34,298 nt of DNA from Verrucomicrobiota bacterium (GCA_020831635.1 JAFIGC010000048.1:1-34298), one strand, 5' to 3'. Shown: positions 1,041-29,378, numbered from the stretch's first letter. Program-made: numbers and translations. Notes: generated by a model from the sequence alone, not told the origin.

Positions 1041-1363
1041 CAGGCGGACTCCGGATGCACGGTGACAGCGCCGATGGTGTCGTTGCCTGCCGTGAGCAGC
1101 AGGCGCCCGAACGCATCTTCTTCATCGATTCCCAGTCGGCGGCACTGCTCCGTTTTCAGGCTTCCTTCCGCAAGCAGGCCCGCAAAAAAGGGAAACAGCG
1201 TCTCGGATTGATACGGGGCGAGCCTTTTGGGAAGGGTCAGACTGACAGGCGGCGCCATGGGGTCGGCCAGGTACTGATCGAAATACGTGAAACAGTATCC
1301 CCCCGCCGTCTCTTCGAGATGCCCGGCCTCACGTCCCAACATCTTCACCGTACCGCTACGCAT
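1040..1363 (-). CDS. hipS: HipS-like protein, probable antitoxin (HipA N-subdomain 1 family)
   Basis: This 107-residue protein matches the detached N-terminal subdomain of HipA. It has the typical motif of a phenylalanine-tyrosine-rich strand, then S-L-T-L-P-K-R, then F-P-F-F-A-G-L-L-A-E-G, and ends in G-x-D-T-I-G-A-V. In known HipBST systems this small protein, not HipB, neutralises the kinase. The gene sits between hipB and hipT. Its ATG lies inside the end of hipB (8-base overlap) and its TGA overlaps the hipT start, so all three proteins should be made from one message in coupled fashion. Being standalone, in the order B-S-T, is what separates this locus from two-gene HipAB. Confidence 0.88.
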   Translation of the reverse strand: MRSGTVKMLGREAGHLEETAGGYCFTYFDQYLADPMAPPVSLTLPKRLAPYQSETLFPFFAGLLAEGSLKTEQCRRLGIDEEDAFGRLLLTAGNDTIGAVTVHPESA

Positions 1364-13118: not shown

Positions 13119-16100
13119 TTATTCAAATCCTCCATCGACTTTTAGGGTGACGCCATTTTCGGTAACCGTTCTAATCACGGACTCTCCAAACCCATTTTCG
13201 CAACTGGCGGATATATCCAACGACAGTCGAACATGCGCACCGGGACTGTTTTGAAGGTGTTGAATGAGTTCTTCGGAAATTCGGGCGACTTCACGTGCCA
13301 TGCGTACAGGATCCAGTTTGGCGCTTCCATGGTACTCCACGACCTTGTTTGGGGTTTCCGAAGTCGTGTGCAAGATAAACGGAGAGGGTGAACCTTCAAG
13401 GTTAGGCACATTGGATGTGGCATCCAAAATGTCCGAAACCCCTTTTTGTTCCCTTTCTTTTTGAAATTGCGTTTCCGCAACAGCAGCCCTCACCACGAGG
13501 CCGTTGGACTGAGGGTCCAGCATCCGCATCCCACCCACATGGAGTCCGATATACCTTTCTTCTTTTTCATCGTACCCGTCTGCGTAGGCAAAAGCGTCTT
13601 TGGCCCAGTTGATTTGGGAAATGCCTTCGTTGATGGAATCCAAAAGAACATCGGGGGACATGAGTTTCGGCAGGTAGAGATACTTGGCGTAATCCTCGAC
13701 CAACGTGGAAATCCGCACGTGATCCCCCTCCCTGAACAGCGGAATTTTCTCAAGATGCTCCTTTAGAAGGTGGGAGGTCAGTCTTCGGCAAAGCGAACCC
13801 TCCGCGCCCAAGCGTTGTTGCACCCGTTCAGGAATAGAGGCGCTTCCTTTCAATCGGAATTCATTCCAAATCATTTCCGGCCTTCCTGGAATCTGCTCCG
13901 GTGTCAGCAACCAACAGTAAGCCTCCCGGAGTCGCGCGGAAATCTCGCGTTCCGCCTCTGCAATTCGGCTGTCCACCTGCCCAAGCTGGTTGTCCCCCAA
14001 ATCCAATTCACTTTTTCGGGATTTGATCAGGTTCCAAGCCAAAAACTTGCAGACCGACTCCTCCACATGCTGAATTTGGGCACTGTCGGGGGCCACAAAA
14101 ATCAAGGTGTTTTTGTACTGTCGGGGAGAGGTTCCCCGATTCGCGAGAAAATCCTCCGCCGCCTTACGCGCCGGGGAATTTTCCGTGCTTTTCTGGTGTG
14201 GACAATCCGGACGGAGGCCAATTAACCGCGTCATCAACTCATCCGGAATATCCGAGGAGACATCGGGTACAAACGGGGCGCGGTCGAAGATCTTGGCCAT
14301 GGCGAAATCGCGGTCGAGCCGTTTGCGGATTTCCTCATGCAAAAGGTCGTGCCGTTTTTTCAGCCGTTCACTTTCATCTTCCGCCAAACTGTTCAAACTC
14401 GGGGTGGTGGAATACCAATAACGGTTGATGCCGTCTGTATACAGGTAGGTGGCCTGATTGGTGAGCTTTTTCAATGCATCCGAGAAAATCGCGACCGTTT
14501 CCCCCGGTTGGACCGTGGCCAGTTTCACTCTGGCTTCGTCCACCCCCTTGTTGGCGGCCCGTTCCAGCGGTGCGGTGGCAAGAAACAAAGAACGCCCCAC
14601 CCGCCTGGTGGCGGAGTAACGCCCCAACTGGCTGGCGAATTTGCGGTCCACCTGCACGGGCGTGCTGTCGGGTCCATCCACATCTTTATCAATCACCGCC
14701 ACCCAATTTTCCTCCAGGTAGTTGGCCAAAGCATCCCGAACGCCCACCGCGTTGACGGGCACATGGGCCGGATGGATCATGAGTCCATTGTCCTGATTCT
14801 CCCAGAGATAATGAATCACCGCCGCCATCAGGCGCAACACCCCCCGGGTACGCTGAAAGCGGACGAGACTCCCCCAGGAATTATACAATTCATCAAACAA
14901 TTCAGGATGAATGGGATAGGCGTCCCGCAGGCGTTTTTCGTAGCGCGGATCCAGGGTTTCAGCGGGAAACTCCTGGGCATGGGTGCGATACATGTCCCCA
15001 TACGCCCGGACCACGGCATCCCGGTGTTTGTACATCTCGGCGGGCAAGGTGTTGAAGAGGCGGCGACGCACGATCTCATAACTTTCCTCTTGGGTCGCGG
15101 AACGCCAGGGGCTGTCCTTGCGTCCAACCACATGACGAAGCCGATGCAAGGCCTCCATACCCCGCTGCCCCCCCACCTCCGTCAAATCAGCGTCCTCTTC
15201 GCCCGGCCTGTCCGAAGCCGGCAAACTCACCACCAGCAGACAGTTGTCCACAGTGGAAACCACCTCCGTGAGTTCCTGGGCAAAGGTGAAATGCGTTTCA
15301 AAACTCCCGGCGGGCAAATCCGCCTCTTCGTGCAACTGCCGCGCATACGCCACCCATTCGTCGATGAGGATCAAACATGGCCCATGGTCCACGAAAAGCT
15401 TCCGCAGCGAATCATCCCGGGGCGTCGTACTTGTGCGGTCCGCCTCCGCCACCAACGCATAGCCCCCCGCGCCCCCCAACTGCCAGGCGATTTCACCCCA
15501 AAGCGTGCGTACCTTGGTACCGTCTTCCTTGACCGACGGGTCACCGGGCGAAATCCGATTGCCCACCAACACCACGGGGTTTACCTTTTTGGAAAGTTTG
15601 GAAATGCCCACTTCTTTCAAGACCCCCTCCAGGCCCGGCAACTCATCCAGCCTTTCCGCGCCGCACAAGTGATACAAGGCCAACATGGAATGGGTTTTCC
15701 CGCCCCCGAAATTCGTCTGCAACTGAATGACCGGCTCCCCGCCTTTGCCGCTCAAACGCCGGATCGCGTTGGACAACAAGCGGTGAAGACCCTCGGTAAT
15801 AAAGGTGCGGCGAAAGAACTCAATTCCATTCGCGTATTCCGGGGGGGCGCTTTCAGGATACTGCGAAACCTGCCACAAATCCGCGGCAAAACGGGCCATG
15901 GCCAGTTGACCGCCGGACACATCCTGGTGCGGGGTCACCACTTCCCGCCAAGGCTTCAGGTTCGGCAAGGCGCGTCCTTCCACCGTTACATCCACCGCCT
16001 GACGGACCACCTGCCGGGCCTGCTCGCTGTACACCAGCCGCTGCACTTCCTCGGCCATCGCCTCCAACTCCTTCGCTTCAGGGGCGGAAACCGCGCGACA

Positions 16101-16460
16101 CAGACGCGACATGGTGTCCAGCGCCCGAAAGGTGTCTGCAGAGGAGAAACCGTGGTCATGGGCGAACGCTTTCCGCACTTCCCAAATTTCGCTCACATAA
16201 CTTCGCTCCGCAAAACCCAGCGTGCGGCGGAAGACATCCCCCCAAAATTTGTTCATCACCGCGAGACATGCTTGCGTGTCCCACGTATCCACCTCCGCCT
16301 CGAATTCGTATTGGTGGTCGTGGCCGCCAAAACCACGGCGCACCGCGGTAACCCAATCGGTTTTGTAAATCGTGCGCATCTCGCGTTCGATATAAGGCGC
16401 GAGCGCACTGCGAAGTAAATGCAGGGCTTCGTCAATACGGGTTCGGTTACTTTTTGCCAT
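13119..16460 (-). CDS. Swt1-type HEPN domain fused to DUF499 ATPase (PglY/BrxC-related)
   Basis: This protein has 1113 residues; AAGGAA lies 9 bases before the ATG. Residues 1-120 resemble the Swt1-type HEPN domain and hold R96-K-A-F-A-H101, matching the catalytic R-x4-H of HEPN RNases. The rest is a DUF499 (COG1483) AAA-like ATPase with Walker A T-N-F-G-G-G-K-T-H-S (249-258) and Walker B C-L-I-L-I-D-E-W-V (362-370). DUF499 proteins include PglY/BrxC-class ATPases of BREX and recur in defence islands with DUF1156 methyltransferases. This is the last gene of the eight-gene operon, 65 bases after the dprA-like gene. It may be the ATPase that couples recognition to an RNA- or DNA-directed effector step; this role is inferred, and HEPN domains can also be inactive scaffolds. 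Confidence 0.85.
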   Translation of the reverse strand: MAKSNRTRIDEALHLLRSALAPYIEREMRTIYKTDWVTAVRRGFGGHDHQYEFEAEVDTWDTQACLAVMNKFWGDVFRRTLGFAERSYVSEIWEVRKAFAHDHGFSSADTFRALDTMSRLCRAVSAPEAKELEAMAEEVQRLVYSEQARQVVRQAVDVTVEGRALPNLKPWREVVTPHQDVSGGQLAMARFAADLWQVSQYPESAPPEYANGIEFFRRTFITEGLHRLLSNAIRRLSGKGGEPVIQLQTNFGGGKTHSMLALYHLCGAERLDELPGLEGVLKEVGISKLSKKVNPVVLVGNRISPGDPSVKEDGTKVRTLWGEIAWQLGGAGGYALVAEADRTSTTPRDDSLRKLFVDHGPCLILIDEWVAYARQLHEEADLPAGSFETHFTFAQELTEVVSTVDNCLLVVSLPASDRPGEEDADLTEVGGQRGMEALHRLRHVVGRKDSPWRSATQEESYEIVRRRLFNTLPAEMYKHRDAVVRAYGDMYRTHAQEFPAETLDPRYEKRLRDAYPIHPELFDELYNSWGSLVRFQRTRGVLRLMAAVIHYLWENQDNGLMIHPAHVPVNAVGVRDALANYLEENWVAVIDKDVDGPDSTPVQVDRKFASQLGRYSATRRVGRSLFLATAPLERAANKGVDEARVKLATVQPGETVAIFSDALKKLTNQATYLYTDGINRYWYSTTPSLNSLAEDESERLKKRHDLLHEEIRKRLDRDFAMAKIFDRAPFVPDVSSDIPDELMTRLIGLRPDCPHQKSTENSPARKAAEDFLANRGTSPRQYKNTLIFVAPDSAQIQHVEESVCKFLAWNLIKSRKSELDLGDNQLGQVDSRIAEAEREISARLREAYCWLLTPEQIPGRPEMIWNEFRLKGSASIPERVQQRLGAEGSLCRRLTSHLLKEHLEKIPLFREGDHVRISTLVEDYAKYLYLPKLMSPDVLLDSINEGISQINWAKDAFAYADGYDEKEERYIGLHVGGMRMLDPQSNGLVVRAAVAETQFQKEREQKGVSDILDATSNVPNLEGSPSPFILHTTSETPNKVVEYHGSAKLDPVRMAREVARISEELIQHLQNSPGAHVRLSLDISASCENGFGESVIRTVTENGVTLKVDGGFE

Positions 16461-16525: not shown

Positions 16526-17764
16526 TTATTTTCGGACATATCGGACCGGCTTGTTCAGTTTTTTGATTTTCTGATCGCGTACGGCCTGCTTCAGCCAGAT
16601 TTGAAGTTGTCCCTTGGCGACATCCAGCGTTTTGGTGAGTTCGTCGACCGTGGCCGGTTTCTCCAACGCGTGTTGAAGCACGGGCAAAACAGCCTCGTAG
16701 ATCGGGGACGACTTCTGCTCCAGCTTCTGAGAGGTGCCGTACGTCCCCTTATCCTCCGATAGGGCCTTTTCCCTGACCACCGCGGGTTCGTCGAACAAAG
16801 CGAGTTCCATTTCCTCGGCTTTCTGTTTCGGTTTGCGCTCGAGCGCCTTCCGCAATGAGGTTTCCGGGGATGCTTCAGACATTTCGGGAAACGTAACGGC
16901 ACCCAACTTGATGAGTTGGGGATTGCCCACGGGAACGGAACCCGTCATGCGGACAAACACCGGCCTGCCGGTCTTTCGTTTCAGTTCCTCGGCGGCGCCG
17001 GCCCAGGTTCCCCCTTTTTTGTGATCCGAACTCACCACCAAGCCATAGTCGGCCATGGCGTAGATGAGTTTGTTGCGGGCCATGGCGGTGCCAACGGTGA
17101 ATCTCGCCTCGGGGTGATAGGGCGAAATCAACAGCAAGGTCCCGTCGGAGATGGCTTTCCGCGCCTCGCGGGCCACGCTGTTTTTGAGCAGGTTCTCCGC
17201 CAACACCCCGACCACACACCCGCCCGCGTCCAAGGCCCCTTTCATGGCGATTTGGTCCACCCCGCGTGCGCCCCCGGAGACCACAGGCAGACCGCCCCGG
17301 GCGCACCAGGCCGCAGCCGTTTCAGTGAACCGTTCCGCTTCCTCGTCAATGTTCCGGGAGCCCACGATCGCCATGCCGCCCCCCTTGAGCAGAGATCGTT
17401 CGCCCACCCCGAACAAGATGGGAGGTGCCTGCTCCTTCAAATGATTCCGGTAGCGGGCCGGATAGTCGGGATCGCTCCGGCAAATCACCCAAATATTGCT
17501 GCGATTCCACGTCTCGACCGCGAATCCCAGTTGAACACCCCGTTTGAGAAGGGCCGCCAACCTTGCTTCCGGAAGTTCCGATCCCATGGCGGCGGGCTTT
17601 ACGTTCTCGGGCGAAAGTAAATCCGCCGGACGCAGATTTGCCTGCACAAGCCATCGGACCAGACGATTATACTCCGAAGGTTGCAGGGGCTTTGAATCCG
17701 TTTCTTTCCCCAGCCGTCCGCAGAGCAGGAGAATCGCTTTTGCATCATCGCTCATTTTTTCCAT
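16526..17764 (-). CDS. DprA-like single-strand DNA-binding protein
   Basis: This protein has 412 residues. The ATG at 17764 is set by GAGG (17771-17774) with a 6-base spacer, a site that overlaps the recQ-like stop; a longer frame to 17827 is rejected. The Rossmann-type DprA fold (about 95-290) shows G-S-R (135-137), S-G-G-A-R-G-V-D (163-170), A-R-N-K-L (229-233) and G-G-T-W (251-254). The C-terminus (about 350-412) is a winged helix: V-D-E-L-T-K-T-L-D-V. Classical DprA protects incoming single strands and loads RecA in transformation. Here the gene is embedded in a defence-type operon, directly after a helicase with a phosphoribosyltransferase tail. DprA-like proteins next to phosphoribosyltransferases occur in several phage-defence settings, which argues against a housekeeping competence gene. 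Confidence 0.88.
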   Translation of the reverse strand: MEKMSDDAKAILLLCGRLGKETDSKPLQPSEYNRLVRWLVQANLRPADLLSPENVKPAAMGSELPEARLAALLKRGVQLGFAVETWNRSNIWVICRSDPDYPARYRNHLKEQAPPILFGVGERSLLKGGGMAIVGSRNIDEEAERFTETAAAWCARGGLPVVSGGARGVDQIAMKGALDAGGCVVGVLAENLLKNSVAREARKAISDGTLLLISPYHPEARFTVGTAMARNKLIYAMADYGLVVSSDHKKGGTWAGAAEELKRKTGRPVFVRMTGSVPVGNPQLIKLGAVTFPEMSEASPETSLRKALERKPKQKAEEMELALFDEPAVVREKALSEDKGTYGTSQKLEQKSSPIYEAVLPVLQHALEKPATVDELTKTLDVAKGQLQIWLKQAVRDQKIKKLNKPVRYVRK

Positions 17765-17772
17765 AAAATACC

Positions 17773-19878
17773 TCAATCCATACGTGGGGAGTTTAAGGTT
17801 AAGGCCAGAGGGTGTACCACCGGGCATCCCGCCTGCCGGAGCAACGCCGCCGCCACTGTGAACGTCCAGCCCGAGTCCGTCATATCGTCAACCAGCAGGC
17901 AGGGATCGGACATCAGTTGGTCCACATCCACACCGAAAGCTCCATCCAGGTTGCGCGCCTGCTGAAAACTGTTGTTCATATGCTTTTGCTGTGGATTGTC
18001 CATCGTCTTGGACAAACAAGGTCGGAACGGCAGGCACAGGCATTCCGCCAGACGCCGTGCAAAGTCCGGAACCAGGTCAGGGTGATTCAGAGAGGGAATA
18101 CAGGTCAGCCAAGTTGGGGCCGGATCAGGGGTCCATTCCCGGAGCATTTCCACACAGGCCGTCACCAGCGAATCGTCAAAATGATTTTGCTCGTATTTGC
18201 CCGCCGCCACCATCTGACCCCAACCCGCGTCTCGCCAGAGACAAAGCGCACGGCCCTCCTCCGCGCACAAATCGGCGGTGATGCGCCCCGAAAACTTGTG
18301 GATGGGCAGTGCTCCACCGCTTGGCCATTGTTTGCGTGGCTTCAGTGGTTGGTAGCTGCGTTTCAGGAAAATCGCGGCTTGGTTTGCAAGATCCAAATTG
18401 TATTCAGGTGATAGCAACGGAGCCTCCACACAACCCGCGCAGCGACCACAGGGACTGGCGGCGGGATCATCCAAGGCCCGGGCCAGAAACTCCATCAAAC
18501 AGCCCCGGTGTTCCATGTACTCTGTCATCTGCGCCTGCTCTTGGTGGCGAATGGCGGTAATGGAGTCCACATAGCCCTCGTTAATTCGATACGTTTCCGC
18601 CACGGCGGTCACATTCCATTTTGAACCGATTTTTGTAACCGGCGCCGGGGATTCCACGGAAAGGAATTTCAACGCTTTTTCGATCTGCCCATGGCTTAGG
18701 TTCAGGACCGCCTTCAATTGCGGCACTGACAATCCCCCATCGGTTTGACCGAGCGCTTCCAGAATGGCTTCCACATGTTGCTGCGGCGGAAATGCGTTTC
18801 GGATAAAGTAATCGGTGATGCGTTCGTCCTCCTCCCCGTGCAGGAGAATGCCATAAGCTTCCTCCACCGCACGCCCGGCGCGACCGACCTGCTGGTAATA
18901 GTGTACCACCGACCCCGGACGTTGAAAATGAATGACAAAGCCCAGGTCGGGCTTGTCAAAACCCATGCCCAAGGCCACGGTTGACACCAACACCTTGACT
19001 TCGTTTTGAAGCAGATCCTGCTCCAAAACTTCGCGACGGGGATCTTCGCCCTCAACATCTTTCACGTCCGCATGATAGGCCTCCGCACTTATATCGTTTT
19101 TTTTCAGCCACGCCGAGACCCGTTCCGCGTCCCGAACCGTCAGGGTATAGATGATCCCACTCCCCGGCAATGCGGGAAGCGTTCGGGCCAGCCACGCCAT
19201 GCGAGCCGCCGGACTGGGCAAAACGATATTTTGCAACTTCAGACTTTCCCGCACCAGAGGTCCCCGCACCAACTGAATGCCTTCCCCCAACTGGGAGAGC
19301 ACATCCGCCACCACCCGGTCATTTGCGGTGGCGGTGGTGGCCAAAACGGGAATATTTGACGGAAAGGCCTGCAGTACCCGCACGATGCGCCGATAATCCG
19401 GACGGAAATCGTGACCCCAATCAGAGATGCAGTGGGCCTCGTCCACCACAAAAAGCCCCACCCGATCCGCCACATGCGCCAACACATTCGCCCGAAAGTT
19501 GTCATTCGCCAAGCGTTCGGGCGAGATCAGCAGGATATCAATCTGATCGTTTTGAAGCCGGTCCTCAATCTCATCCCAGTCCTCCGTATTGGTGCTGTTG
19601 ATCGTCTCCGCCCGCACCCCGATCCTCCGGGCCGCCTCGATTTGATTCCGCATCAGGGACAATAATGGAGAGATCAATAACGTAACTCCCGCTCCCTGGT
19701 CGCGAAGCAGACGGGTCGCAAGAAAATAAACCATGCTTTTCCCCCAACCCGTGCGTTGCACCACCAACAAACGACGACGGTTCAGCAGTCCGTCAATCGC
19801 CTCCCACTGTCCATCCCGAAAATCGACATTGGGCTGGTCCAAGGCCTGCCGTAAATAGGTTGTTGCTTGTGCACGCAT
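17773..19878 (-). CDS. RecQ-family helicase with C-terminal phosphoribosyltransferase domain
   Basis: This protein has 701 residues; the ATG lies 5 bases after the methyltransferase stop, with no clear Shine-Dalgarno site, so coupling is likely. The RecQ core has motif 0 (F-R-D-G-Q, 20-24), Walker A Q-R-T-G-W-G-K-S (41-48), DEAH (146-149), the R-x-D-Y aspartate region near 159-162 and motif VI Q-V-G-R-A-G-R (329-335). A zinc-binding set C459, C476, C479, C482 follows. Residues about 510-700 are not RecQ-like and end in a type I phosphoribosyltransferase PRPP loop: L-L-V-D-D-M-T-D-S-G-W-T (661-672), like ComFC. It presumably unwinds DNA 3' to 5'; the PRTase may bind a nucleotide ligand rather than catalyse. 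The fusion beside a DprA-like gene mirrors the competence pair ComFC and DprA. Confidence 0.88.
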   Translation of the reverse strand: MRAQATTYLRQALDQPNVDFRDGQWEAIDGLLNRRRLLVVQRTGWGKSMVYFLATRLLRDQGAGVTLLISPLLSLMRNQIEAARRIGVRAETINSTNTEDWDEIEDRLQNDQIDILLISPERLANDNFRANVLAHVADRVGLFVVDEAHCISDWGHDFRPDYRRIVRVLQAFPSNIPVLATTATANDRVVADVLSQLGEGIQLVRGPLVRESLKLQNIVLPSPAARMAWLARTLPALPGSGIIYTLTVRDAERVSAWLKKNDISAEAYHADVKDVEGEDPRREVLEQDLLQNEVKVLVSTVALGMGFDKPDLGFVIHFQRPGSVVHYYQQVGRAGRAVEEAYGILLHGEEDERITDYFIRNAFPPQQHVEAILEALGQTDGGLSVPQLKAVLNLSHGQIEKALKFLSVESPAPVTKIGSKWNVTAVAETYRINEGYVDSITAIRHQEQAQMTEYMEHRGCLMEFLARALDDPAASPCGRCAGCVEAPLLSPEYNLDLANQAAIFLKRSYQPLKPRKQWPSGGALPIHKFSGRITADLCAEEGRALCLWRDAGWGQMVAAGKYEQNHFDDSLVTACVEMLREWTPDPAPTWLTCIPSLNHPDLVPDFARRLAECLCLPFRPCLSKTMDNPQQKHMNNSFQQARNLDGAFGVDVDQLMSDPCLLVDDMTDSGWTFTVAAALLRQAGCPVVHPLALTLNSPRMD

Positions 19879-19883
19879 CGTGG

Positions 19884-22694
19884 TTAATTGAGATCCAATT
19901 CGGTCTGATTGGAAACGCGGGGCAGATCGTTGAGCTGGTTCACAATCGACGGCCAGGACACCACCAGCGCGTTAAAGGGCAGTGCTTCCGCCGGCCATCG
20001 TTTGCTCTCGCTGATTTGAAACAGCAGATAAGCCAACTCGCGGCAGGCTTCCGCCAGGCCGGCATCCACGTCACGGAGGTCCTTCAAAATCCGGGCCGCG
20101 TCCACTTCCCCGCCCTGTTTCAAGGCACGGGTCAAATGACCGGTGGCCTCCCACAGGCTCAGTCGCTTGTCCGTCGCCGGATTCCAGTTCACGGGAAGTT
20201 CATCCGGTTTCAGCAGCCGCACCTTGCTGGCGGAAGCCTGGAGAATCCCCCCGTCCTGCAAACCTTTCACCGAAACCGCCTGCGCCCGCGCCAAGCCCTC
20301 CGCATCCCCGAAGGGACCCGCCTCGTAGCCGTATTGACGGAACCAGGCCACCGCCCAGCGGGTATCCGAGTCGAATTCCGACTCTTGTTCCTCCAAACAT
20401 TCCGACAGAACCTGATTGATCACCCGCAAGGCCGCCCGAACCGACATTTCCCCGCCCTCGTTTTCCAGAACCCGTCCAAACGAGGAAAACACCGCCATGC
20501 CGGGCCCCAGCGCAGCCTGCGCCAAGTCCACCGGGGCGATGTTCGCCTTTTGCAAAGTCTCCACCGCCGAGGGCAGACGTTGGCGCAGTTCCCGCAGGAA
20601 GTCCCGTCGGCTGGCGGTGGGCGCTTCCGGGGAACGCGGACGACAGGCCAGCACGATGTAGCTGGCCAGGGCGTTGGAACCCATCGCCCGCATCCGCCAC
20701 TGCTGGGATGCCCGCACCGGCACCGTGGCCGTGATTTGAAAGCCGCTGGCGTTCAAGGCCTCCAGCAGCGTTTCCCAGCCCGTGGTCAGATTCACCCGCT
20801 CGTCATCTTCCGCGCCGGCTTGCTCGTCCGACTGCTTGAATGCGTAATACACCGTCAGCGGAAAACGCGGATCCATGCGCGCCCGCAGGTTGGTGAAGGC
20901 CTGGCGAAATCCATTTTCAAAATGTTCCTTGGCCGCCTGCTTGTCACCGTCATGCCGCTCCGCCGCCGCCGTCAGTTCAGGCCCCTTGGGCACCAGCACG
21001 GTGCTGAACACCTCCGGATACAAAGCCGCCAGGTTCTTGCGCAGCCAGACATAGAAAAAATCACTCAGGGCCGCATAGCCGATATTATCGTAATACGGCG
21101 GATCCGTGCTCACCAGCAAAGGCCCCTCCACACTGTTCACCGCCGCCACCGCGTCCTGCTGTTGGGTGCGGGAAACCGCGTCTTTTCGGCGGGTGATGGT
21201 TTGAATACATTTGGTGACATACTCCATGCAGGTTTGATAAGAACCCACGGAAGTCCCCAGCAGATTTCCTTCCGCAAAGTCCCAGACCATGGGAATCGCC
21301 TGACGTCCAAACAAATGCATGGGTTTTTCGTTACTTGCTCCCCATCCGCATAACGAATTATTAAAATCCGCACTACGGTCCACGGCAAAGGCGAGAAAGG
21401 TGGTGACCGCCTTGGCGTATTCCTCCGCCTGCGCCTCCGAAAGTCCGGTATTTTTCGCATCCGCAAGCACCTGCCCCCGATTTTCCGCAATTGCATCACA
21501 CAGAAACCCCATGGTGAAGAGTTGGCGTTTGGTGAATAAATCCCGATATTCGTTCAATCCATATAGCGGGGTGTAAAAGGCCCTTCGATCACTAGAAATT
21601 TCACCATCGGGACTCCAAGTGGGTTGGGCTGAAAAAGCAATGCTTTCGTGTTCTTGGGGGGTGTCAACATAAACTCGCTTCCTGCCACCATCTGCCACAA
21701 CTGCAACCAATTGGAATCCCATCTTCCCGGCGCATCCTTCTTCTTTAATGTAAGATGCGGAAATAGTACTCCCCGATAACAAGCAGGTGAAGTTTGAACC
21801 ACGCCCTTCTTTTGTGCCTGATTTAACCACATCACTATCTTTGGGTGTACCATGTAATATCTTAAAGCGAACTTGGTTTTTTTCGGGTTCTATGTAAGGC
21901 TCAAGGTAAGCAAGTTTCCCCTTCTTTGAGCAGAGCCAGTAGGTTGTAAGCAAGGGCACATGGGTTCCACCCACTGTCGGATCCGGACTGCGGACGGTTC
22001 GAGCCCATATCCAGGCGATGACTTCGGCCTTCTGTCCCCCAAGGTCTTTTGGAAGTTTGACCTTGGGATAGAGCTGTCCGATCTCCTTGATGGCCTTTTT
22101 GCGGATTTGCTCCCCATACCAGGCCACGTCCTTGGCCAATCCGGTCGCACCCTGCCAGGAGCCCTGGATCTGCGCGGCGTCGTCCGGATTCACGGGCGGA
22201 TGATCCAGCCAGCGCGGCACGATCTCCAACTGGGCTTTGTTGATCATCACCGCCACCGGGTTCAGATCGGAAGCCACGGCGGGAAAACCCAGCCGCTGCG
22301 CCTCCAGAGGAATGGAGCCCCCGCCGGAAAAGGGGTCGAGCACGGTGGGGAGTTGACCCTCACAATGTTTGGCCATCTCCGCCCGCGCCTCCTCATAGAC
22401 TTCCGGCTTTTCGTGCAGCCGGGGTTGCATCATGCGGCGAATAATCCCGTGCAAGCGTTCCCGCTCCGCCTCGATAGCCTCCGCCGTCGCTCCGGCAAAG
22501 CGGGGATCCGTTTCCGGATCATTCACCACCGACGCGAACAGCACCGCCCTCGCCGTCGGCAAAGGCAAACGCGCCCACCAGTGATGAATCCCCTTCGGGT
22601 GCGGCCCGATCCCCGGCATTTTGTCATACGCCGAAGCGTCATTGATCACATCCAGCGGCAGGGAGACTTCGATAAGTTTTTTGGGGTGGGTCAT
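19884..22694 (-). CDS. DUF1156-family adenine-specific DNA methyltransferase (COG1743)
   Basis: This 936-residue protein starts at an ATG that overlaps the DUF4276 stop by four bases (ATGA). The DUF1156 signature H-H-W-W-A-R-L-P-L-P-T-A-R-A-V is at 37-51. SAM motif I, L-D-P-F-S-G-G-G-S-I, is at 119-128 with an acidic S-D-L-N-P at 142-146. Catalytic motif IV, D-P-P-Y-Y-D-N, is at 530-536. Both motifs are intact, so an active N6-adenine (or N4-cytosine) methyltransferase is expected. Homologues act as PglX-like enzymes in some BREX types. No separate specificity subunit is encoded, so recognition must lie in this protein, probably between the motifs. The central part (21585-21905) is clearly more AT-rich than the flanks, as if exchanged. 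It is the expected self-marking enzyme of the operon. Confidence 0.9.
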   Translation of the reverse strand: MTHPKKLIEVSLPLDVINDASAYDKMPGIGPHPKGIHHWWARLPLPTARAVLFASVVNDPETDPRFAGATAEAIEAERERLHGIIRRMMQPRLHEKPEVYEEARAEMAKHCEGQLPTVLDPFSGGGSIPLEAQRLGFPAVASDLNPVAVMINKAQLEIVPRWLDHPPVNPDDAAQIQGSWQGATGLAKDVAWYGEQIRKKAIKEIGQLYPKVKLPKDLGGQKAEVIAWIWARTVRSPDPTVGGTHVPLLTTYWLCSKKGKLAYLEPYIEPEKNQVRFKILHGTPKDSDVVKSGTKEGRGSNFTCLLSGSTISASYIKEEGCAGKMGFQLVAVVADGGRKRVYVDTPQEHESIAFSAQPTWSPDGEISSDRRAFYTPLYGLNEYRDLFTKRQLFTMGFLCDAIAENRGQVLADAKNTGLSEAQAEEYAKAVTTFLAFAVDRSADFNNSLCGWGASNEKPMHLFGRQAIPMVWDFAEGNLLGTSVGSYQTCMEYVTKCIQTITRRKDAVSRTQQQDAVAAVNSVEGPLLVSTDPPYYDNIGYAALSDFFYVWLRKNLAALYPEVFSTVLVPKGPELTAAAERHDGDKQAAKEHFENGFRQAFTNLRARMDPRFPLTVYYAFKQSDEQAGAEDDERVNLTTGWETLLEALNASGFQITATVPVRASQQWRMRAMGSNALASYIVLACRPRSPEAPTASRRDFLRELRQRLPSAVETLQKANIAPVDLAQAALGPGMAVFSSFGRVLENEGGEMSVRAALRVINQVLSECLEEQESEFDSDTRWAVAWFRQYGYEAGPFGDAEGLARAQAVSVKGLQDGGILQASASKVRLLKPDELPVNWNPATDKRLSLWEATGHLTRALKQGGEVDAARILKDLRDVDAGLAEACRELAYLLFQISESKRWPAEALPFNALVVSWPSIVNQLNDLPRVSNQTELDLN

Positions 22695-23308
22695 GATGTA
22701 TGGGAAAGTGCGGTTTGGATTTCTTTTCGGAATTTACGAAAGGAGCGGCAGATGCCAGATGATTCCAAATCAAGCAGCCGCGTCAGCTCCGGCTGGTCCA
22801 CTGGTTCGGAATACGTGCTCAGAGGCAAAAGGTTTTGTTTAATCCAGTTTTTACCGGAAAGTTCCTCAGGATGATCCGGGGCGATGAGGCCTTTGCGAAA
22901 CCTCGCATCCGATGACAGGCTGGGCGCGGAAGCCGCGAGCCAGTTTTCGAACATGCGTTTGGCGATTACCACAGACAGGCGAACATCACCTACCAGAGGA
23001 TTCGCATCGTTCCGTATGCGTTGGGCCAGGGTGACGGGGCAGTCTCCCTCGGCATCCAGCAAAACCAGAAGAACGCCCGGCTTGCCCCTGATATTTTTGG
23101 CCGCCAACTGAAGGGAACGTCCGAATTCCCCCTCGGCCTCTCTTTTTAAAAATCGGTCTCGCTTCACTCGAAGAGGAGGGAAACATTGGAGTGGCCTCGT
23201 GCATCCCTCTGCCGCGGCAATTTTCCGTATGAGAATCTCCACGGCCTTTACCTCCCCATGCCCCTCCACCAAAGAGGCAAAACAAATTGGATTCCATGAA
23301 TCAGACAC
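22691..23308 (-). CDS. DUF4276-like TOPRIM-type protein, probable partner of the AAA_21 ATPase
   Basis: The GTG start at 23308 gives 205 residues. It has a strong GGGGAG site (23316-23321) with a 7-base spacer and overlaps the ATPase stop by 8 bases; a longer frame to 23584 lies inside the ATPase gene and is rejected. The N-terminus reads S-L-V-E-G-H-G-E (E15), then L-V-L-L-D-A-E-G-D (D85, D89) and a later F-E-N-W. This is the glutamate then D-x-E-x-D order of TOPRIM-like nucleases. AAA_21 plus small TOPRIM-like protein pairs resemble a split OLD nuclease, as in PARIS, which uses a different TOPRIM family. It is a likely nuclease effector or tRNA/DNA-cutting partner, inferred. Assignment to DUF4276 is by pattern only. 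Confidence 0.72.
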   Translation of the reverse strand: MSDSWNPICFASLVEGHGEVKAVEILIRKIAAAEGCTRPLQCFPPLRVKRDRFLKREAEGEFGRSLQLAAKNIRGKPGVLLVLLDAEGDCPVTLAQRIRNDANPLVGDVRLSVVIAKRMFENWLAASAPSLSSDARFRKGLIAPDHPEELSGKNWIKQNLLPLSTYSEPVDQPELTRLLDLESSGICRSFRKFRKEIQTALSHTS

Positions 23309-24512
23309 CGATAAACTCCCCTTGTAAATCTTTTTCACGGTTTTGCCGAAGATACTCTTCGTCAGGGACGATTTGCTGTAAGCGCAGCAACTCACCGGCG
23401 CTAAAGAGGTTTTCCCGAATGCTGTCACGACCCACGTGAGACATGGGGGCGATTTCCGATCCATGATGACCCTGGCCGACGGCAAGGATCGCCTCTGGAG
23501 AGACCCCTTCCATATCCAGAAAATCAGGGCTGTGAGTTGAGAGCAACACTTGGCGACCCAGCGAAACTTCCTGGAATGCCGCAAGTAAAATACCGGATGC
23601 CGCCGGGTGTAAGGCTAATTCCGGTTCCTCAATGGCGATGAAAGGCACATGAACCTCGAAGGAACCCAAATGTTGAAAACAAGCCACCAACACTGCAAAG
23701 GCCCGGAGAGACCCATCCGACATCTCTGAGCCCCTGAAGCGTACAGGTTGGGGGTTGCCAAGAAATTTTCGTTCGTCGTCCACGATTTGCCAGAAGTCCA
23801 AGGTCTCCATCCGATCCAAATCGACTTTCCTGACATCCACAAGCCCGGAAACAAACCTTTGCAGATAGGTCACAATCCGTTGACGTGTCTCCAGGGACAT
23901 TCCCCCGAAAACTGACGCCACATTGGATCCATTGCTGTTGAGCATCACCTCGGGGCTTGGGGACTGCAAAGACCTAATGGCTTCGGGACCCAGATTGTAA
24001 AAGCCCATGTGCAGCAGCTCATCGTAAAGATAGGTAAACTCGTCAAAGCCTGAAACCAAATTCAGATAAGGGCGATCCTCTGGGACCGGGGGACGAATCA
24101 CGAAAGAGGCCTCCAGAAGTTTTCCATTTTCGATTCGGTAATAAGATTCACGTTTCTTATGATCGTTCACCCAGCAAGCCTCTTTGAGCAGGATCGGCCG
24201 GTTCTTACTGTTTTGGCCCACCGTAAAGCCAAATTTTGCGGACACCCCGTGATCCAATTCCAGGATCATGCTGATGCAGAAACTCGAGATGTCTTCACTG
24301 GATCGGTGTAGAACGGAATTCAATCCTCCCCGCACGCGAAGGGCGTGGTCCAGATTGCTGGAAATGATGTCCCTGACAAAACGCAGTGCATCAATCAGGT
24401 TGCTTTTTCCCGCACCGTTCGGACCCACCAAAATGCTAAGATCCGTGAGTTCGATGCGGACATTTCTCAAGCTTTTGTAACCTGTAACCGATATTTTGGA
24501 GATAAAGGCCAT
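23301..24512 (-). CDS. AAA_21 ABC-type ATPase (RecF/OLD-like)
   Basis: This protein has 403 residues from the ATG at 24512, one base after the XRE gene stop. Features in order: a Y-K-S-L-R-N strand, Walker A G-P-N-G-A-G-K-S (30-37), a long helical and variable middle, an ABC signature M-S-D-G-S-L-R (264-270), Walker B F-I-A-I-E-E-P-E (291-298), L-H-P (301-303) and the H-loop S-T-H-S-P-D (325-330). All ATPase motifs are intact. It lacks the TOPRIM domain that full-length OLD proteins carry at the C-terminus; the following overlapping gene encodes a TOPRIM-like protein, so the two probably form one complex. Hand-counted stretches here range from about 40 to 57% GC, against 55-60% in the flanking methyltransferase, hinting at separate acquisition. 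Confidence 0.88.
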   Translation of the reverse strand: MAFISKISVTGYKSLRNVRIELTDLSILVGPNGAGKSNLIDALRFVRDIISSNLDHALRVRGGLNSVLHRSSEDISSFCISMILELDHGVSAKFGFTVGQNSKNRPILLKEACWVNDHKKRESYYRIENGKLLEASFVIRPPVPEDRPYLNLVSGFDEFTYLYDELLHMGFYNLGPEAIRSLQSPSPEVMLNSNGSNVASVFGGMSLETRQRIVTYLQRFVSGLVDVRKVDLDRMETLDFWQIVDDERKFLGNPQPVRFRGSEMSDGSLRAFAVLVACFQHLGSFEVHVPFIAIEEPELALHPAASGILLAAFQEVSLGRQVLLSTHSPDFLDMEGVSPEAILAVGQGHHGSEIAPMSHVGRDSIRENLFSAGELLRLQQIVPDEEYLRQNREKDLQGEFIGV

Positions 24513-24513
24513 T

Positions 24514-24888
24514 TCAATCGCCCCCCTCGGTTTCCGCCCCAAACCATTGGGAGTCACAACCCTCCGGCTCCAGGTGGCTGCGGTAGGTGCAGCCGAGGGC
24601 GTGGGCGATCTTCACCATGGAATCGAGGGTGAAATTGGTGTTTCCCCGCAGGATCTTGGTGATGTAGGCCGGGCTGCTGTCGATGCGCCGGGCGAGTTCG
24701 GTGCGGTTGACCCCCAGTTTGTCCATGCGGGCCACCATTTGCTCGGTGAATTCGAGCACCGCACCCTCCAGTCGGTAGCTGTGGGTGTTCCGCGCCTCTT
24801 CCATCAGGCCTTGGAATTCGTTTTTTTTGTTCATGGCTTCTTCATTTAACTTCCAGGTTAAAAAGCAAGTGTTTTCCAGCAAAATCAT
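24514..24888 (-). CDS. XRE-family helix-turn-helix regulator inside the operon
   Basis: This protein has 124 residues. The ATG at 24888 overlaps the helicase stop (ATGA) and has a strong GGAGG (24894-24898) 5 bases upstream, which is why this start is chosen over a Met at 24834 (106 residues). The N-terminal half is helical (E-G-A-V-L-E-F-T-E-Q-M). Residues 60-100 are an XRE/Cro fold: R-T-E-L-A-R-R-I-D-S-S-P-A-Y-I-T-K-I-L-R-G, then F-T-L-D-S-M-V-K-I-A-H-A-L-G. It could act as an internal controller, like the C proteins of restriction-modification operons, or as an antitoxin-like partner. The operator is not identified. Translation is expected to be tightly coupled to the helicase. Confidence 0.85.
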   Translation of the reverse strand: MILLENTCFLTWKLNEEAMNKKNEFQGLMEEARNTHSYRLEGAVLEFTEQMVARMDKLGVNRTELARRIDSSPAYITKILRGNTNFTLDSMVKIAHALGCTYRSHLEPEGCDSQWFGAETEGGD

Positions 24889-27800
24889 CCGTTCCTCCCC
24901 TTGGCGAGGAGTTTTTTCATGGAGAGATTCATGGAAGCGGCGGAGAAGGCAATACCGTCTGCGAAGGGCTGGTGCACATAAACCGGGGTCTCGGCGGCGC
25001 CGTTTTCGATGGGAACAATCACCAGCCACCACTGATCGGGTCGGTTGAGCCCGGTGAGGATCTCGTTGCGGGTGAGGGTGACGGTGTCCGCTCCGGCGGC
25101 ACGGGCTTTTACCTCCAAAAAACGCAGTTTTCCGGTGTCGGGGTCGAGGGATTCGATGTCGTATCCGACGTGTTCGGCGGAGACATCGCGGGGGATGAAG
25201 CCCATCTCCAGCTCGGACGCCATTACCGCCTCCATGCCCAGCAACTCCGATGCCTGGTTGTCCCGGCCATACATGGGGGGCTTTTCCCGCACCACGCCGG
25301 GTTCGGCGGTGATTTCCGTAAACCAGCAGGCGGGCACCACCAATGCGCCGCCATGGACCACCGGCGGAGTGGCCATGATGTTCCGCTGGCGGTCCAGCTC
25401 TTCGAGACGCAGGCTGAGCCGTTCGGCGAGATCCTCTGCGCGTTGCTGGGCGTTCTGTGAATTCAGTTTGGAACGACTGTTCCCCGCCTCCTCGCGTTCC
25501 CGCAATTCGATGGCCCGGGCGTCCCAATAGCGGATTTCGGATTCCAAGCGGCGGCGAACCTGCTCGCGGGTTTTTTCGATCAGGGCTTCGCGTCGCTCCC
25601 GAACACCGTCCAAGTGATCCGGCACCAGGTGTTCGATCGCATATTCCACCGCTTTTTCCTCCAGATCGGCGGAGAGCCAGGACTCGTTCAGGAGGGTTTT
25701 GGCGTCCTCAAGTTGTTCGGAGGTTGGGGAGGTATAATCCAGATAGGGGGCATAACCCGCGTCCACCAAGCGTCCATCGGGGTAGAGTTCGACAAATTGA
25801 AGGAGTCTGGAGAGCACGTGGTTGCCCCCCGACGCCGTGTCCGGCCTTCCATCATGGACCGCGCTCTCCAGGAACAGGAGTAGCCGGGGTTGGGACACGG
25901 TATCCGCGGGATCCACGAGGATGGTTCCCTGGCGGAGGGTTTCGCGATGCCGTTCCAAGACCAAGCTGATGGTCGCGTCCAGAAGCGGATGGCCCGGCGC
26001 GATAAGCGCGGCGGGCGGGTGCCCATCGACCCGCACGGCTTCTTTTTCAAAGGTGACCCGTTCCATGGCCTTGGGAAGGGGGGCACGAATGCCCACCACC
26101 CGGTCGCGCCGGCGTATATCCAAGGGAACATGGCGAATCTCGAAGCGTCGGCTCTCCCGTTTGAGCAGCTTGCCGCCGAAGGAGGAAAACGCTTCTTCAA
26201 AAAAGCTCCCGATATAGTGGGGTTGCAATTTACGGGCTTCCGCCCGCTGCATGCGCTCGCAAAGGCTTTGGATGCGCGCCTGGTCGAATTGCTCGGGGGA
26301 GATGGCCCGTTCATCCACCAAACGGCGGAGCTTGGAATGGTCCAGATTCTCATCAATGACCTGGTTCAGCCAAACTTCGGTTTCATCGCTCTCATTGAAT
26401 CGAATCGCCTTGAGCAGCAGATCTTTGAGGGGCGTGTCTTTGAAGGCTTCGCCCAGCACGTCGAAGACGGCATCCCCGAGCGCTTCGCGTTCCGCCTCGA
26501 TTTTTTGCAACAGACGGAGATACACGTCGCCCTCGCGGGTTTCTCCGGCCACAAGATTCCACAGATGACAGGTCTCCCGCTGACCAATACGGTGGATCCG
26601 GCCAAAACGTTGCTCCAGGCGGTTCGGATTCCAAGGTAAATCGTAATTCACCATCAGGTGGGCCCGTTGAAGGTTGATGCCTTCTCCGGCGGCGTCGGTG
26701 GCGAGCAGAATCAGGCATTCCGGGTCATTCGAGAACATTTCCTGGATGGCGCGACGCTGTTCGCGGGTTACTTGTCCATGAATCACCTGGATGGCGTCCG
26801 CGCTGGGAACCATGGCCAGAAGTTTTTTGCGCAGATAGTTGAGGGTGTCGCGGTGCTCCGTGAAGATGATCAGCTTGCGTTGCCGTCCGTGTGCGTCTTT
26901 CATCTTGTCGTTTTTATGAAGGGCGTCGGCCAGTTTGATCCACTTGCTGTCCGTGCCTGCATTTTTGACCGCCGCCGCCTGTTTTTCGAGACTTTTGAGG
27001 GTGGCGATCTCTTTTTCCAGTTCGCCGATGGTTACCGATGCGGTGGCAAGGTCGAGAATCCGCTCCTCCATCTCCTCGAATTCATGGCCGGGCAGATCCT
27101 CAATGTCCTCCACCGCTTCCTCGTCCAGATCCGGTGCGCCGGTCAATTGAATCTTCCGGAGTTCCGCGCCCCTTTTGAGGATTTTCTCCTCGCGGACCCG
27201 CTTTTCCAGCCGTTCGCGGCGGCGGCGAAGGGATTGGTAAATGGCTTCGGGGGAAGAGGCCAAACGCCGTTGCAGAATGGTGAGCGCAAATCCAACCGTG
27301 CCTTTTCTGCCGCTCTCCATGTTGTCGGCCCGGTTGAACTCCTCGCGAACATACTCCGTGACCGCCCGGTAGAGTTTCGCTTCCTGGTCCGAGAGCGTGT
27401 ACTCCAGCGTGTAGGCGTAGCGGGGCGGAAAAAGGGGCTTGCCTTCCATGGTGACCAACTGCTCTTTGACCATGCGCCGCATCAGGTCGGAGGCATCCAC
27501 GCTGTGCACGCCGTCCCGCATGCGGCCCTCGAACCGGTCTCCGTCCAACAGGGATAGAAAAAGCTGAAAATCCTCGTCTTTGCCATTGTGTGGGGTCGCG
27601 GTGAGCAACAGAAATTGTCGGGTGTGCCGGGAAAGCAACTGTCCAAGCCGAAAACGTTTGGTGCGTTTGATTTCGCCCCCGAAATAGGTGGCGGCCATTT
27701 TGTGGGCCTCGTCCACAATCACCAAATCCCAGTCAACCTGTTTGACCTTCTCCTGCAACTCCTCATCCCGACTCAGTTTATCGAGCCGCACGAGGCAAAA

Positions 27801-28400
27801 ATTATGCTCCAAAAACCAATTGCCGGTACGGGAGGATTCCTGTCCCTCTTTGGTGAGGATATCAAAGGGCAGATTGAACTTCTGGTCGAGTTCATCCTGC
27901 CACTGTTCGACGATGGACCCGGGCGCGACGATCAGGCACTTGGAAATATCGCCCCGGATGACCAGTTCTTTCACCAGCAAACCCGTCATGATGGTTTTGC
28001 CGGCTCCCGGGTCGTCGGCCAACAGAAAGCGGAGAGGTTGCCGGGTAAGCATGGTGTCGTATACCGCCGTCACCTGGTGTGGAAGGGGTGTGACGGAAGA
28101 GGTGTTCACCGCCACCATGGGATCAAATAAATGCGCCCAGCGAATACGCTGGGCCTCTGCGGCAAGTCGAAATGCATTCGCATCCGCCGAAAGTGAAAGC
28201 GTGCGGGATCGACATTCCACATTCAGTCGGTGCTCGTCCGATCGATACAACAGCATGCTGCCCGTTTTCCCCCGGGCATCCACAAAAGTCACGTTGACCG
28301 CTTGGGACCCGATCATTTTGGCGTGTTGAATGGATACGGTTTCACCGGGAATCATCCCGCTGACCGAGGCACCCACAATAATGTCTTCCAGCTTAGGCAT
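24885..28400 (-). CDS. SNF2/HepA-type helicase with C-terminal DUF3883 nuclease-like domain
   Basis: This 1171-residue protein is the first gene of the eight-gene operon. The SF2 core shows H-Q (108-109), Walker A D-D-P-G-A-G-K-T (129-136), D-E-A-H (230-233), L-L-T-A-T-P (265-270) and, in the second lobe, T-D-A-A-G-E-G-I-N-L followed by Q-R-F-G-R-I-H-R-I-G-Q. A long insertion with coiled-coil character separates the lobes (about 375-480). The C-terminus has a DUF3883 domain: G-Y-D-I with D1081, then L-E-V-K-A-R (E1096, K1098), a D-x14-E-V-K pattern like Mrr/PD-(D/E)xK folds. COG0553 helicases of this layout accompany DUF1156 methyltransferases and DUF499 ATPases in defence islands. Probable role: translocation on, and possibly cleavage of, unmodified DNA (inferred). 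Confidence 0.9.
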   Translation of the reverse strand: MPKLEDIIVGASVSGMIPGETVSIQHAKMIGSQAVNVTFVDARGKTGSMLLYRSDEHRLNVECRSRTLSLSADANAFRLAAEAQRIRWAHLFDPMVAVNTSSVTPLPHQVTAVYDTMLTRQPLRFLLADDPGAGKTIMTGLLVKELVIRGDISKCLIVAPGSIVEQWQDELDQKFNLPFDILTKEGQESSRTGNWFLEHNFCLVRLDKLSRDEELQEKVKQVDWDLVIVDEAHKMAATYFGGEIKRTKRFRLGQLLSRHTRQFLLLTATPHNGKDEDFQLFLSLLDGDRFEGRMRDGVHSVDASDLMRRMVKEQLVTMEGKPLFPPRYAYTLEYTLSDQEAKLYRAVTEYVREEFNRADNMESGRKGTVGFALTILQRRLASSPEAIYQSLRRRRERLEKRVREEKILKRGAELRKIQLTGAPDLDEEAVEDIEDLPGHEFEEMEERILDLATASVTIGELEKEIATLKSLEKQAAAVKNAGTDSKWIKLADALHKNDKMKDAHGRQRKLIIFTEHRDTLNYLRKKLLAMVPSADAIQVIHGQVTREQRRAIQEMFSNDPECLILLATDAAGEGINLQRAHLMVNYDLPWNPNRLEQRFGRIHRIGQRETCHLWNLVAGETREGDVYLRLLQKIEAEREALGDAVFDVLGEAFKDTPLKDLLLKAIRFNESDETEVWLNQVIDENLDHSKLRRLVDERAISPEQFDQARIQSLCERMQRAEARKLQPHYIGSFFEEAFSSFGGKLLKRESRRFEIRHVPLDIRRRDRVVGIRAPLPKAMERVTFEKEAVRVDGHPPAALIAPGHPLLDATISLVLERHRETLRQGTILVDPADTVSQPRLLLFLESAVHDGRPDTASGGNHVLSRLLQFVELYPDGRLVDAGYAPYLDYTSPTSEQLEDAKTLLNESWLSADLEEKAVEYAIEHLVPDHLDGVRERREALIEKTREQVRRRLESEIRYWDARAIELREREEAGNSRSKLNSQNAQQRAEDLAERLSLRLEELDRQRNIMATPPVVHGGALVVPACWFTEITAEPGVVREKPPMYGRDNQASELLGMEAVMASELEMGFIPRDVSAEHVGYDIESLDPDTGKLRFLEVKARAAGADTVTLTRNEILTGLNRPDQWWLVIVPIENGAAETPVYVHQPFADGIAFSAASMNLSMKKLLAKGRNG

Positions 28401-28455: not shown

Positions 28456-28471
28456 ATGACTTTATAGTCAT
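28456..28471. promoter_or_regulatory. Inverted repeat over the LysR gene start
   Basis: ATGACT-TTAT-AGTCAT is a perfect inverted repeat that covers a -10-like TATAGT (28463-28468) and the LysR gene start codon. A second short repeat, CATGT-A-ACATG, lies directly upstream (28449-28459). Together they suit negative autoregulation, which is common for LysR-type regulators. Confidence 0.45.
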
Positions 28472-29378
28472 GAATTATCAGATCTTAAACCGAACCGTGA
28501 GCTTGGATAGGCTGGAAACCTTCCGCAAGGTGGTGGAACACGGGTCCATTGCCGAAGCAGCGGATCGTGACAGTAACCGACAAAGCCAGTTCAGTCGTCA
28601 GATCAAGGAATTGGAATCCGCTTTTGAGGTCCGTTTGTTCGATGCCAAAGGCAAAGAACGCCGCCTGAACGAGAAAGGGCGTGAACTGGTCTTGCTGATC
28701 GAACAGTTTTTCGGGGCGTTGGAGGATTTCTGGAAATCCAACACCACGGATGGGATTACTATCAGCATTGGGGCGGGCGAGAGCATTCTTGAAGGGGTGG
28801 TCCTGCCTGCCTTGGGGGAATTTGGGCTCACGATGCCGCATGTAAAAGTACAGATGCGAAATCTGCGGTCCAAGGAAGTTGTTGAGCAATTGAGCCTCGG
28901 GAGCTTGGACATTGGGATTCTAGTAGGTCCGCCTCAACAGGAGTCTTTGACATGGTCCCCATTGGGTAAAATTCGGTATCATGTCCTGATTCCAAGAACC
29001 TTTCTTCGTGTAGGCGTTTCGCAGGCTTTCACGGATATCGTTAAGCATCCGTGGGCTGTTTTAGCTGGGAACGGAAGAGGTCGTAATCTTCTGGAGGCGA
29101 ATCTGAAAGCGATTCATTCCAAAGTACATGTGACTTTCGAAGCCAGTTCGTACGCCCATTTGGCTGAAATCGCCCGCATGGGGTTGGCTGTAGTCTGCGT
29201 GCCGGAATGGATTGGTAAAAACTTGTCTGCGGATTTGGTGTCATCCGTCTCTTTTGAGGAACTATCCTCCATGAACAGAGACTTCTATTTGGTAAGCAAC
29301 CCCAAAAATTCCGATCTTCGGCCTTTAGTTGCAAAAGCGGCACACAATATTTCCCGCATCTTGGATGCTGGATTTTAA
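28470..29378 (+). CDS. LysR-type transcriptional regulator divergent from the defence-type operon
   Basis: This 302-residue protein has an N-terminal winged helix (about 11-70): L-D-R-L-E-T-F-R-K-V-V-E-H-G-S-I, then S-Q-F-S-R-Q-I-K-E-L-E and F-D-A-K-G-K-E-R-R-L-N-E-K-G-R-E-L. A periplasmic-binding-protein-like effector domain follows (about 95-300), with L-D-I-G-I-L-V at 150-156 and E-I-A-R-M-G-L-A-V-V-C-V-P near 231. The recognition helix departs from the usual A-A-x-x-L-x-x-S-Q-P-A/S-V-S pattern, with an odd D-S-N-R-Q-S-Q. It is transcribed away from the operon across a 69-base gap holding palindromes, the classical layout for a LysR protein that controls the divergent genes. The inducer is unknown. 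Confidence 0.88.
   Translation: MNYQILNRTVSLDRLETFRKVVEHGSIAEAADRDSNRQSQFSRQIKELESAFEVRLFDAKGKERRLNEKGRELVLLIEQFFGALEDFWKSNTTDGITISIGAGESILEGVVLPALGEFGLTMPHVKVQMRNLRSKEVVEQLSLGSLDIGILVGPPQQESLTWSPLGKIRYHVLIPRTFLRVGVSQAFTDIVKHPWAVLAGNGRGRNLLEANLKAIHSKVHVTFEASSYAHLAEIARMGLAVVCVPEWIGKNLSADLVSSVSFEELSSMNRDFYLVSNPKNSDLRPLVAKAAHNISRILDAGF

Follow-up and report, generated by a model that had tools for sequence, protein, structure and literature searches.

The toxin-antitoxin-like module in which a RecQ helicase is fused to a phosphoribosyltransferase (PRTase) and paired with a DprA-like protein is known as PsyrTA or RqlHI (reported by Sberro 2013 and by Russell and Mulvey 2015). Here we analyze such a pair in a stretch of 34,298 nucleotides (nt) from a Verrucomicrobiota bacterium (GCA_020831635.1, JAFIGC010000048.1:1-34298; the window), where it lies inside an operon of the methylation-based defense system Hma and, as we argue with moderate confidence, represents PsyrTA embedded there as a second, abortive line of defense. 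ShosT, from the related system ShosTA, is a PRTase that lacks a RecQ helicase; the PRTase of the window is fused to RecQ, so the pair falls outside ShosTA, whose PRTase stands alone. The ShosTA PRTase has been reported to cause DNA damage. ShosT has been described as a phosphoribosyltransferase/pyrophosphatase that disturbs purine metabolism and is counteracted by the DprA-like ShosA (PMC12593503), and P2-like phages encode a DprA-PRTase pair that confers protection from T7 and lambda (PMC9122126). RqlHI of extraintestinal E. coli has a genotoxic PRTase domain restrained by the DprA-like partner: deletion of the PRTase, or a change of one aspartate in the pocket for phosphoribosyl pyrophosphate (PRPP) (D663A), removed most of the toxicity of RqlH, and RqlI co-precipitated with RqlH only when the PRTase was present (PMC4670107).

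The features of the window pair are as follows.

17773..19878, minus strand: PsyrT/RqlH, a RecQ-family helicase with a C-terminal PRTase, 701 amino acids (PADLOC, RecQ_fam, AlphaFold 2 (AF2) model).
18430..18501, minus strand: four-cysteine zinc site in the RecQ part, C460, C477, C480 and C483 (pattern C-x16-C-x2-C-x2-C).
17788..18396, minus strand: PRTase domain, approximately residues 495-697 (Pribosyltran in relatives; PRPP-synthetase profile matches).
17863..17898, minus strand: PRPP loop LLVDDMTDSGWT, residues 661-672 (read in the open reading frame (ORF); conserved in relatives).
16526..17764, minus strand: PsyrA/RqlI, DprA-like with a C-terminal winged helix, 412 amino acids from the likely start (PADLOC, DNA_processg_A, model).

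PADLOC assigns the 17773-19878 ORF to PsyrT (3.3e-294, spanning residues 3-696) and its neighbor to PsyrA (9.9e-132 over nearly the full length, against 3.3e-26 for the ShosA model with the same protein). As in PsyrTA/RqlHI, both proteins are full length, in the same order and on the same strand, the PRPP loop is intact, and the DprA-like gene follows directly downstream after a gap of 8 nt; the difference is that the window pair is embedded in an Hma operon. Judged by these sequence matches, the pair is the already described PsyrTA (RqlHI) module. The pair had been noticed in an earlier reading made from the sequence alone (the sequence-only reading). The PADLOC matches and the description of RqlHI (PMC4670107) lead us to reject a novel RecQ-PRTase-DprA unit, and the window adds one further member to a known family. 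The proteins are ordinary and their address is slightly unusual.

The helicase part of PsyrT contains a Walker A motif, TGWGKS (residues 43-48), followed by DEAHCISDWGHDFR (146-159), GMGFDKPD (304-311) and QQVGRAGR (329-336). It falls within the wider RecQ family (NCBIfam TIGR00614, 7.7e-77, above the cut-off) and misses the cut-off of the canonical RecQ equivalog (297 bits versus 640). In the AF2 model (predicted local distance difference test score 86.5), residues 1-487 resemble RecQ catalytic cores such as those of BLM (7aud) and D. radiodurans RecQ (4q48), both at Z 38.6. The complete RecQ core claimed by the sequence-only reading holds for the helicase and the four-cysteine zinc site, but we see no evident canonical RQC/HRDC tail in PsyrT, where the PRTase occupies that place. 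The zinc-site cysteines are gone, and the PRPP loop retained, in four of the 17 aligned PsyrT relatives (loci L053, L054, L055 and L058). Identity reaches at most 75% with the nearest relatives in the sets examined and is about 53% with an E. coli plasmid copy.

That the C-terminal region is a PRTase, on which the sequence-only reading depended, is upheld by sequence families: Pfam Pribosyltran matches this domain in 17/17 aligned members, weakly in the window protein (E=0.005) and with 3.5e-7 in the best member. Residues D664, D665, W671 and T672 of the PRPP loop show no variation across 18 sequences, and a DDxxxSxWT-type loop occurs in 77 ORFs of related loci, most commonly as DDMVDSRWT. When the whole PsyrT model was searched against the PDB, helicases alone appeared among the matches listed; because the RecQ part fills that list, the PRTase fold is assigned from sequence families and not from a structural match. 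A profile built from the PsyrT C-terminal alignment had PRPP synthetases as its top PDB matches (E=1e-4). The label "ComFC-like" given to this domain thus survives as a PRTase with an intact PRPP-loop motif and not as a ComFC-specific one, since the nearest profile is that of PRPP synthetases rather than ComFC, and a search of the bacterium's own genome with the comF model TIGR00201 gave three places, none inside the window. Elsewhere, an ORF matching PsyrT in the PRTase region only (6.6e-15) immediately precedes a full PsyrT (L109:3-1490, plus strand) and is possibly a PRTase-only duplicate. An E. coli PsyrT (NZ_CP124405.1, near 3043220-3047991) is split by an IS3-like element, and what is left of it carries the annotation "ComF family protein".

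The adjoining protein has the full DprA fold plus winged helix that had been read from the sequence: PsyrA matches DNA_processg_A (8.9e-37), and its model can be aligned with DprA of S. pneumoniae (3uqz, Z 26.0) and, in keeping with the PRTase plus DprA-like partner shared with ShosTA, with ShosA (8zva, Z 25.3), with the winged helix at the C-terminus. Its start is most likely the ATG at 17764, 8 nt past the PsyrT stop, rather than 17827, because homologues align from there. To place the pair in a wider context we scanned genomes of species, together with viral contigs, and used 82 related loci, with 80 of 493 PsyrT candidates examined. PsyrA adjoins PsyrT in 76 of the 82 loci, and five of the six exceptions are truncated by the end of a contig or of the available sequence, so RecQ proteins of this type do mostly lie beside DprA, as the sequence-only reading needed.

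That reading went on to propose a competence-derived unit for handling single strands, with the PRTase as a nucleotide sensor. The DprA and PRTase folds are indeed shared with competence proteins, and both the common domains with ComFA/ComFC and a possible link to incoming DNA have been noted before (PMC4670107; PMC5512222). However, PsyrA misses the cut-off of the canonical DprA equivalog (91.9 bits versus 191.15), a separate canonical DprA lies elsewhere in the same genome (266 bits, above the cut-off), as does a separate weak ComF match, no competence gene was recognized beside the pair, and the published toxicity maps to the PRTase (PMC4670107). We therefore reject competence as the main reading of the function and regard it as the least probable of the explanations considered here. 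What stands of a competence-like unit recruited against invading DNA is the defense setting and the stable pairing with DprA; descent from competence reduces to shared domain ancestry.

The defense setting is given by the surrounding genes, which form a minus-strand run of eight, HmaA-(helix-turn-helix)-HEC-01A-HEC-01B-HmaB-PsyrT-PsyrA-HmaC. Those outside the pair are:

24885..28400, minus strand: HmaA, SNF2-type helicase (PADLOC HmaA, E=0, 1547.7 bits, full length).
24514..24834, minus strand: small helix-turn-helix protein of 106 amino acids between HmaA and HEC-01A, a putative XRE-type regulator or antitoxin (by eye).
23301..24512, minus strand: HEC-01A, OLD/AbiEii-like ATPase, belonging to a second embedded module that lies between HmaA and HmaB (PADLOC HEC-01A 2e-115; AAA_21).
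22691..23300, minus strand, start approximate: HEC-01B, DUF4276 (PADLOC HEC-01B 9.1e-50; DUF4276 1.2e-9).
19884..22694, minus strand: HmaB, DUF1156 DNA-adenine methyltransferase, ending 5 nt before PsyrT (PADLOC HmaB, E=0, 1021 bits).
13119..16460, minus strand: HmaC, DUF499 ATPase with an N-terminal HEPN_Swt1 domain, starting 65 nt after PsyrA (PADLOC HmaC 8.3e-284; HEPN_Swt1 1.1e-32).

Hma is complete in the window, with helicase, methyltransferase and DUF499 ATPase in one gene run, and HmaC carries the N-terminal HEPN that is often present in Hma, a system that has also been described as a Type-1 (DUF499-centred) BREX-related system (PMC12839542). A C-terminal PD-(D/E)XK nuclease, another mark of Hma, would be expected on HmaA, which here matches the HmaA profile at full length. 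In 11 other Hma loci the HmaB/HmaC junction has no insert and measures 6-60 nt, so PsyrTA fills this junction exactly, with gaps of 5, 8 and 65 nt at HmaB/PsyrT, PsyrT/PsyrA and PsyrA/HmaC. Base composition showed no step at the PsyrTA borders, and a scan for promoters and terminators around the pair found nothing beyond chance. Such close packing, together with the HmaC-like ATPase that begins 21 nt beyond PsyrA in locus L091, would be expected if PsyrTA were a working part of Hma, with HmaC or HmaB needing the PsyrT helicase or PsyrA for restriction. PsyrTA was found in none of 31 other Hma loci (11 from within the phylum, and 20 from genomes that were sampled around two further centers), many of which have HmaB and HmaC adjacent, and it persists without Hma in most of its own loci. 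On these 31 loci we reject it as a standard part of Hma, and a working role in restriction at this locus is very unlikely. What looked like a PsyrT beside HmaC in L234 is a RecQ-family helicase that lacks the PRTase (L234:1579-3531, minus strand, directly after HmaC).

The placement of PsyrTA in other genomes points to a recurrent association with methylation-based systems. In 10/82 loci the pair has a same-strand neighbor related to type I restriction-modification (RM), BREX or Hma. The upstream gene is BrxC in L083, L100, L101 and L108 and PglXI in L093; L099 has a SNF2-type helicase, L162 and L084 have a type I methyltransferase or endonuclease, L091 has the HmaC-like ATPase, and L152 has an HmaB-like methyltransferase. 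In both L083 and L101, BREX-like genes flank the pair, with BrxC before it and an Eco57I-type methyltransferase after it. Apart from these 82 loci, E. coli plasmid and chromosome copies have the order hsdM-hsdS-PsyrT-PsyrA-hsdR, one with an insertion sequence element before hsdR, and this allele occurs in 53 of 5,426 E. coli genomes. On an Acinetobacter plasmid the order is brxC-pglX-PsyrT-PsyrA-DUF262-pglZ-brxL; recQ, dprA and duf262 already appear in a figure legend on A. baumannii BREX loci in a 2022 plasmid paper (PMC10117892), and the main text of a 2026 BREX survey that lists embedded nucleases makes no mention of RecQ, DprA or PRTase. On a 70-row PsyrT tree the 10 nested rows require 10 label changes versus 9.5 for shuffled labels, indicating that nesting is scattered and was not inherited once. 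As a control, we took 20-kb stretches at random from these genomes, and one of the 20 contained type I RM genes; the sample is small (n=20) and is to be read with the clustering of defense genes in general. The recurrence of PsyrTA abutting or interrupting Hma, BREX and type I RM in unrelated hosts suggests a functional tie between a PRTase toxin and methylation-based restriction.

Alternatively, PsyrTA may have entered the Hma operon as a self-maintaining toxin-antitoxin cassette and may stabilize the operon against loss, with no sensing of phage. The toxin-antitoxin-like behavior already known for the module (PMC4670107) would fit, as would plasmid copies beside partition genes, such as the Nostoc plasmid where ParA/ParB lie directly upstream of PsyrTA, and the majority of loci in which the pair has no link to another defense system. 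Repeated, in-register and tree-scattered placement in methylation-based operons nevertheless exceeds what plain addiction predicts, and we consider the cassette an unlikely explanation, although addiction of operons of this kind may occur. Among phage records there was no match at E<=1e-60, and relatives are encoded on two viral contigs.

Our favored reading, PsyrTA as a backup nested in Hma, is supported by features computed here, namely the protein families, the helicase and PRPP-loop motifs, the gene order and the repeated, scattered placement. Toxicity, the need for the aspartate, partner binding and restraint are all taken from published relatives rather than from this protein. In an uninfected cell, PsyrA would hold PsyrT quiet. 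If Hma restriction failed or were inhibited, or if aberrant phage replication intermediates arose, the RecQ part might engage structures containing single-stranded DNA, and PsyrA would then release PsyrT. The freed PRTase could misuse PRPP and nucleotides near DNA, leading to DNA damage and to growth arrest ahead of phage release. We hold the triggering steps, taken by themselves, only tentatively. By analogy with RqlHI, the PRTase probably serves as an effector rather than as the nucleotide sensor it had earlier been suggested to be, because published work places the toxicity in the PRTase and has the DprA-like partner restrain it (PMC4670107).

Several observations weigh against this backup role. 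Overexpressed PsyrTA of E. coli NILS69 gave no detectable protection in the assay used (PMC12409345), and many Gram-positive RqlH proteins occur without RqlI (PMC4670107), so toxicity may not be a constant property of RqlH. The 72/82 PsyrTA loci with no type I RM, BREX or Hma gene near the pair within the available sequence, together with the 31 Hma loci without PsyrTA, indicate that Hma is not required by the pair. A further proposal, made for RqlHI itself (PMC4670107), is that RecQ, PRTase and DprA-like protein form a joint enzyme for DNA repair or processing, in which the PRTase alters a nucleotide, PsyrA and the helicase resolve the product, and toxicity arises only when the partner is missing. 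An intact RecQ core and the DprA-like fold kept in PsyrA would suit such an enzyme, whereas the patchy distribution, the defense-operon settings, the parallel with ShosTA and the lack of a detected fitness cost on deletion of rqlHI in E. coli (PMC4670107) favor defense. We find this proposal doubtful.

Precedent for the nested backup comes from toxins of other families. The address of PsyrTA is worth testing because type I RM loci are an established site of nested toxins, PrrC being an example (PMC12629846). The window resembles PrrC in type I RM, and PARIS-like OLD-TOPRIM or BrxU-like DUF262 proteins in BREX, in having a toxic or separate defense gene within a methylation-based operon; it differs in that PsyrTA is another protein family, to which a guard role would extend by analogy. 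One could imagine PsyrTA as a recurrent guard of Hma, BREX and type I RM whose PRTase is unleashed once the host system has been disabled by anti-restriction proteins, in the manner of PrrC with type I RM, but we rate this general role as improbable, if conceivable. The same applies to its corollary, that PsyrTA watches the host system, or DNA intermediates left by it.

Insertion of defense genes into Hma is not in itself new. Genes embedded in Hma have been published (Payne et al. 2024, as cited in PMC11411939), as has embedding in type I RM; PsyrTA at the HmaB/HmaC junction is the less ordinary part. The window shares with Hma loci that carry HEC genes (Hma-embedded candidates) the three core proteins and HEC-01A/B, and differs from them in having PsyrTA as the module at this junction. 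The Hma junctions of sampled relatives (L072, L073, L074, L077, L078 and L079) carry other cargo, namely PtuA, AbiL-like and HEC-02 ATPases, PifA, SoFic, HEC-07 and PDC-S02 proteins, an arrangement of genes by which Hma appears to behave as a carrier with two cargo sites.

In the BREX-like runs of L083 and L101, PsyrTA is followed by a TIR-domain protein (L083:8487-9557) and a Schlafen AlbA_2 protein (L101:11942-13654), respectively, as stacked candidate effectors. One regulator lies beside the Hma operon of the window:

28470..29378, plus strand: LysR-type regulator divergent from HmaA (LysR_substrate 2e-27, HTH_1 6e-14).

In a second Hma locus from this phylum, a LysR-type regulator 27% identical to it is placed in the same way (L077:2274-3182, minus strand), and the LysR-type protein is possibly an Hma regulator. 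At the start of the window, two adjacent ORFs at 66-1363 (minus strand) look by eye like a HipA-like kinase and its N-terminal partner, a candidate toxin-antitoxin pair.

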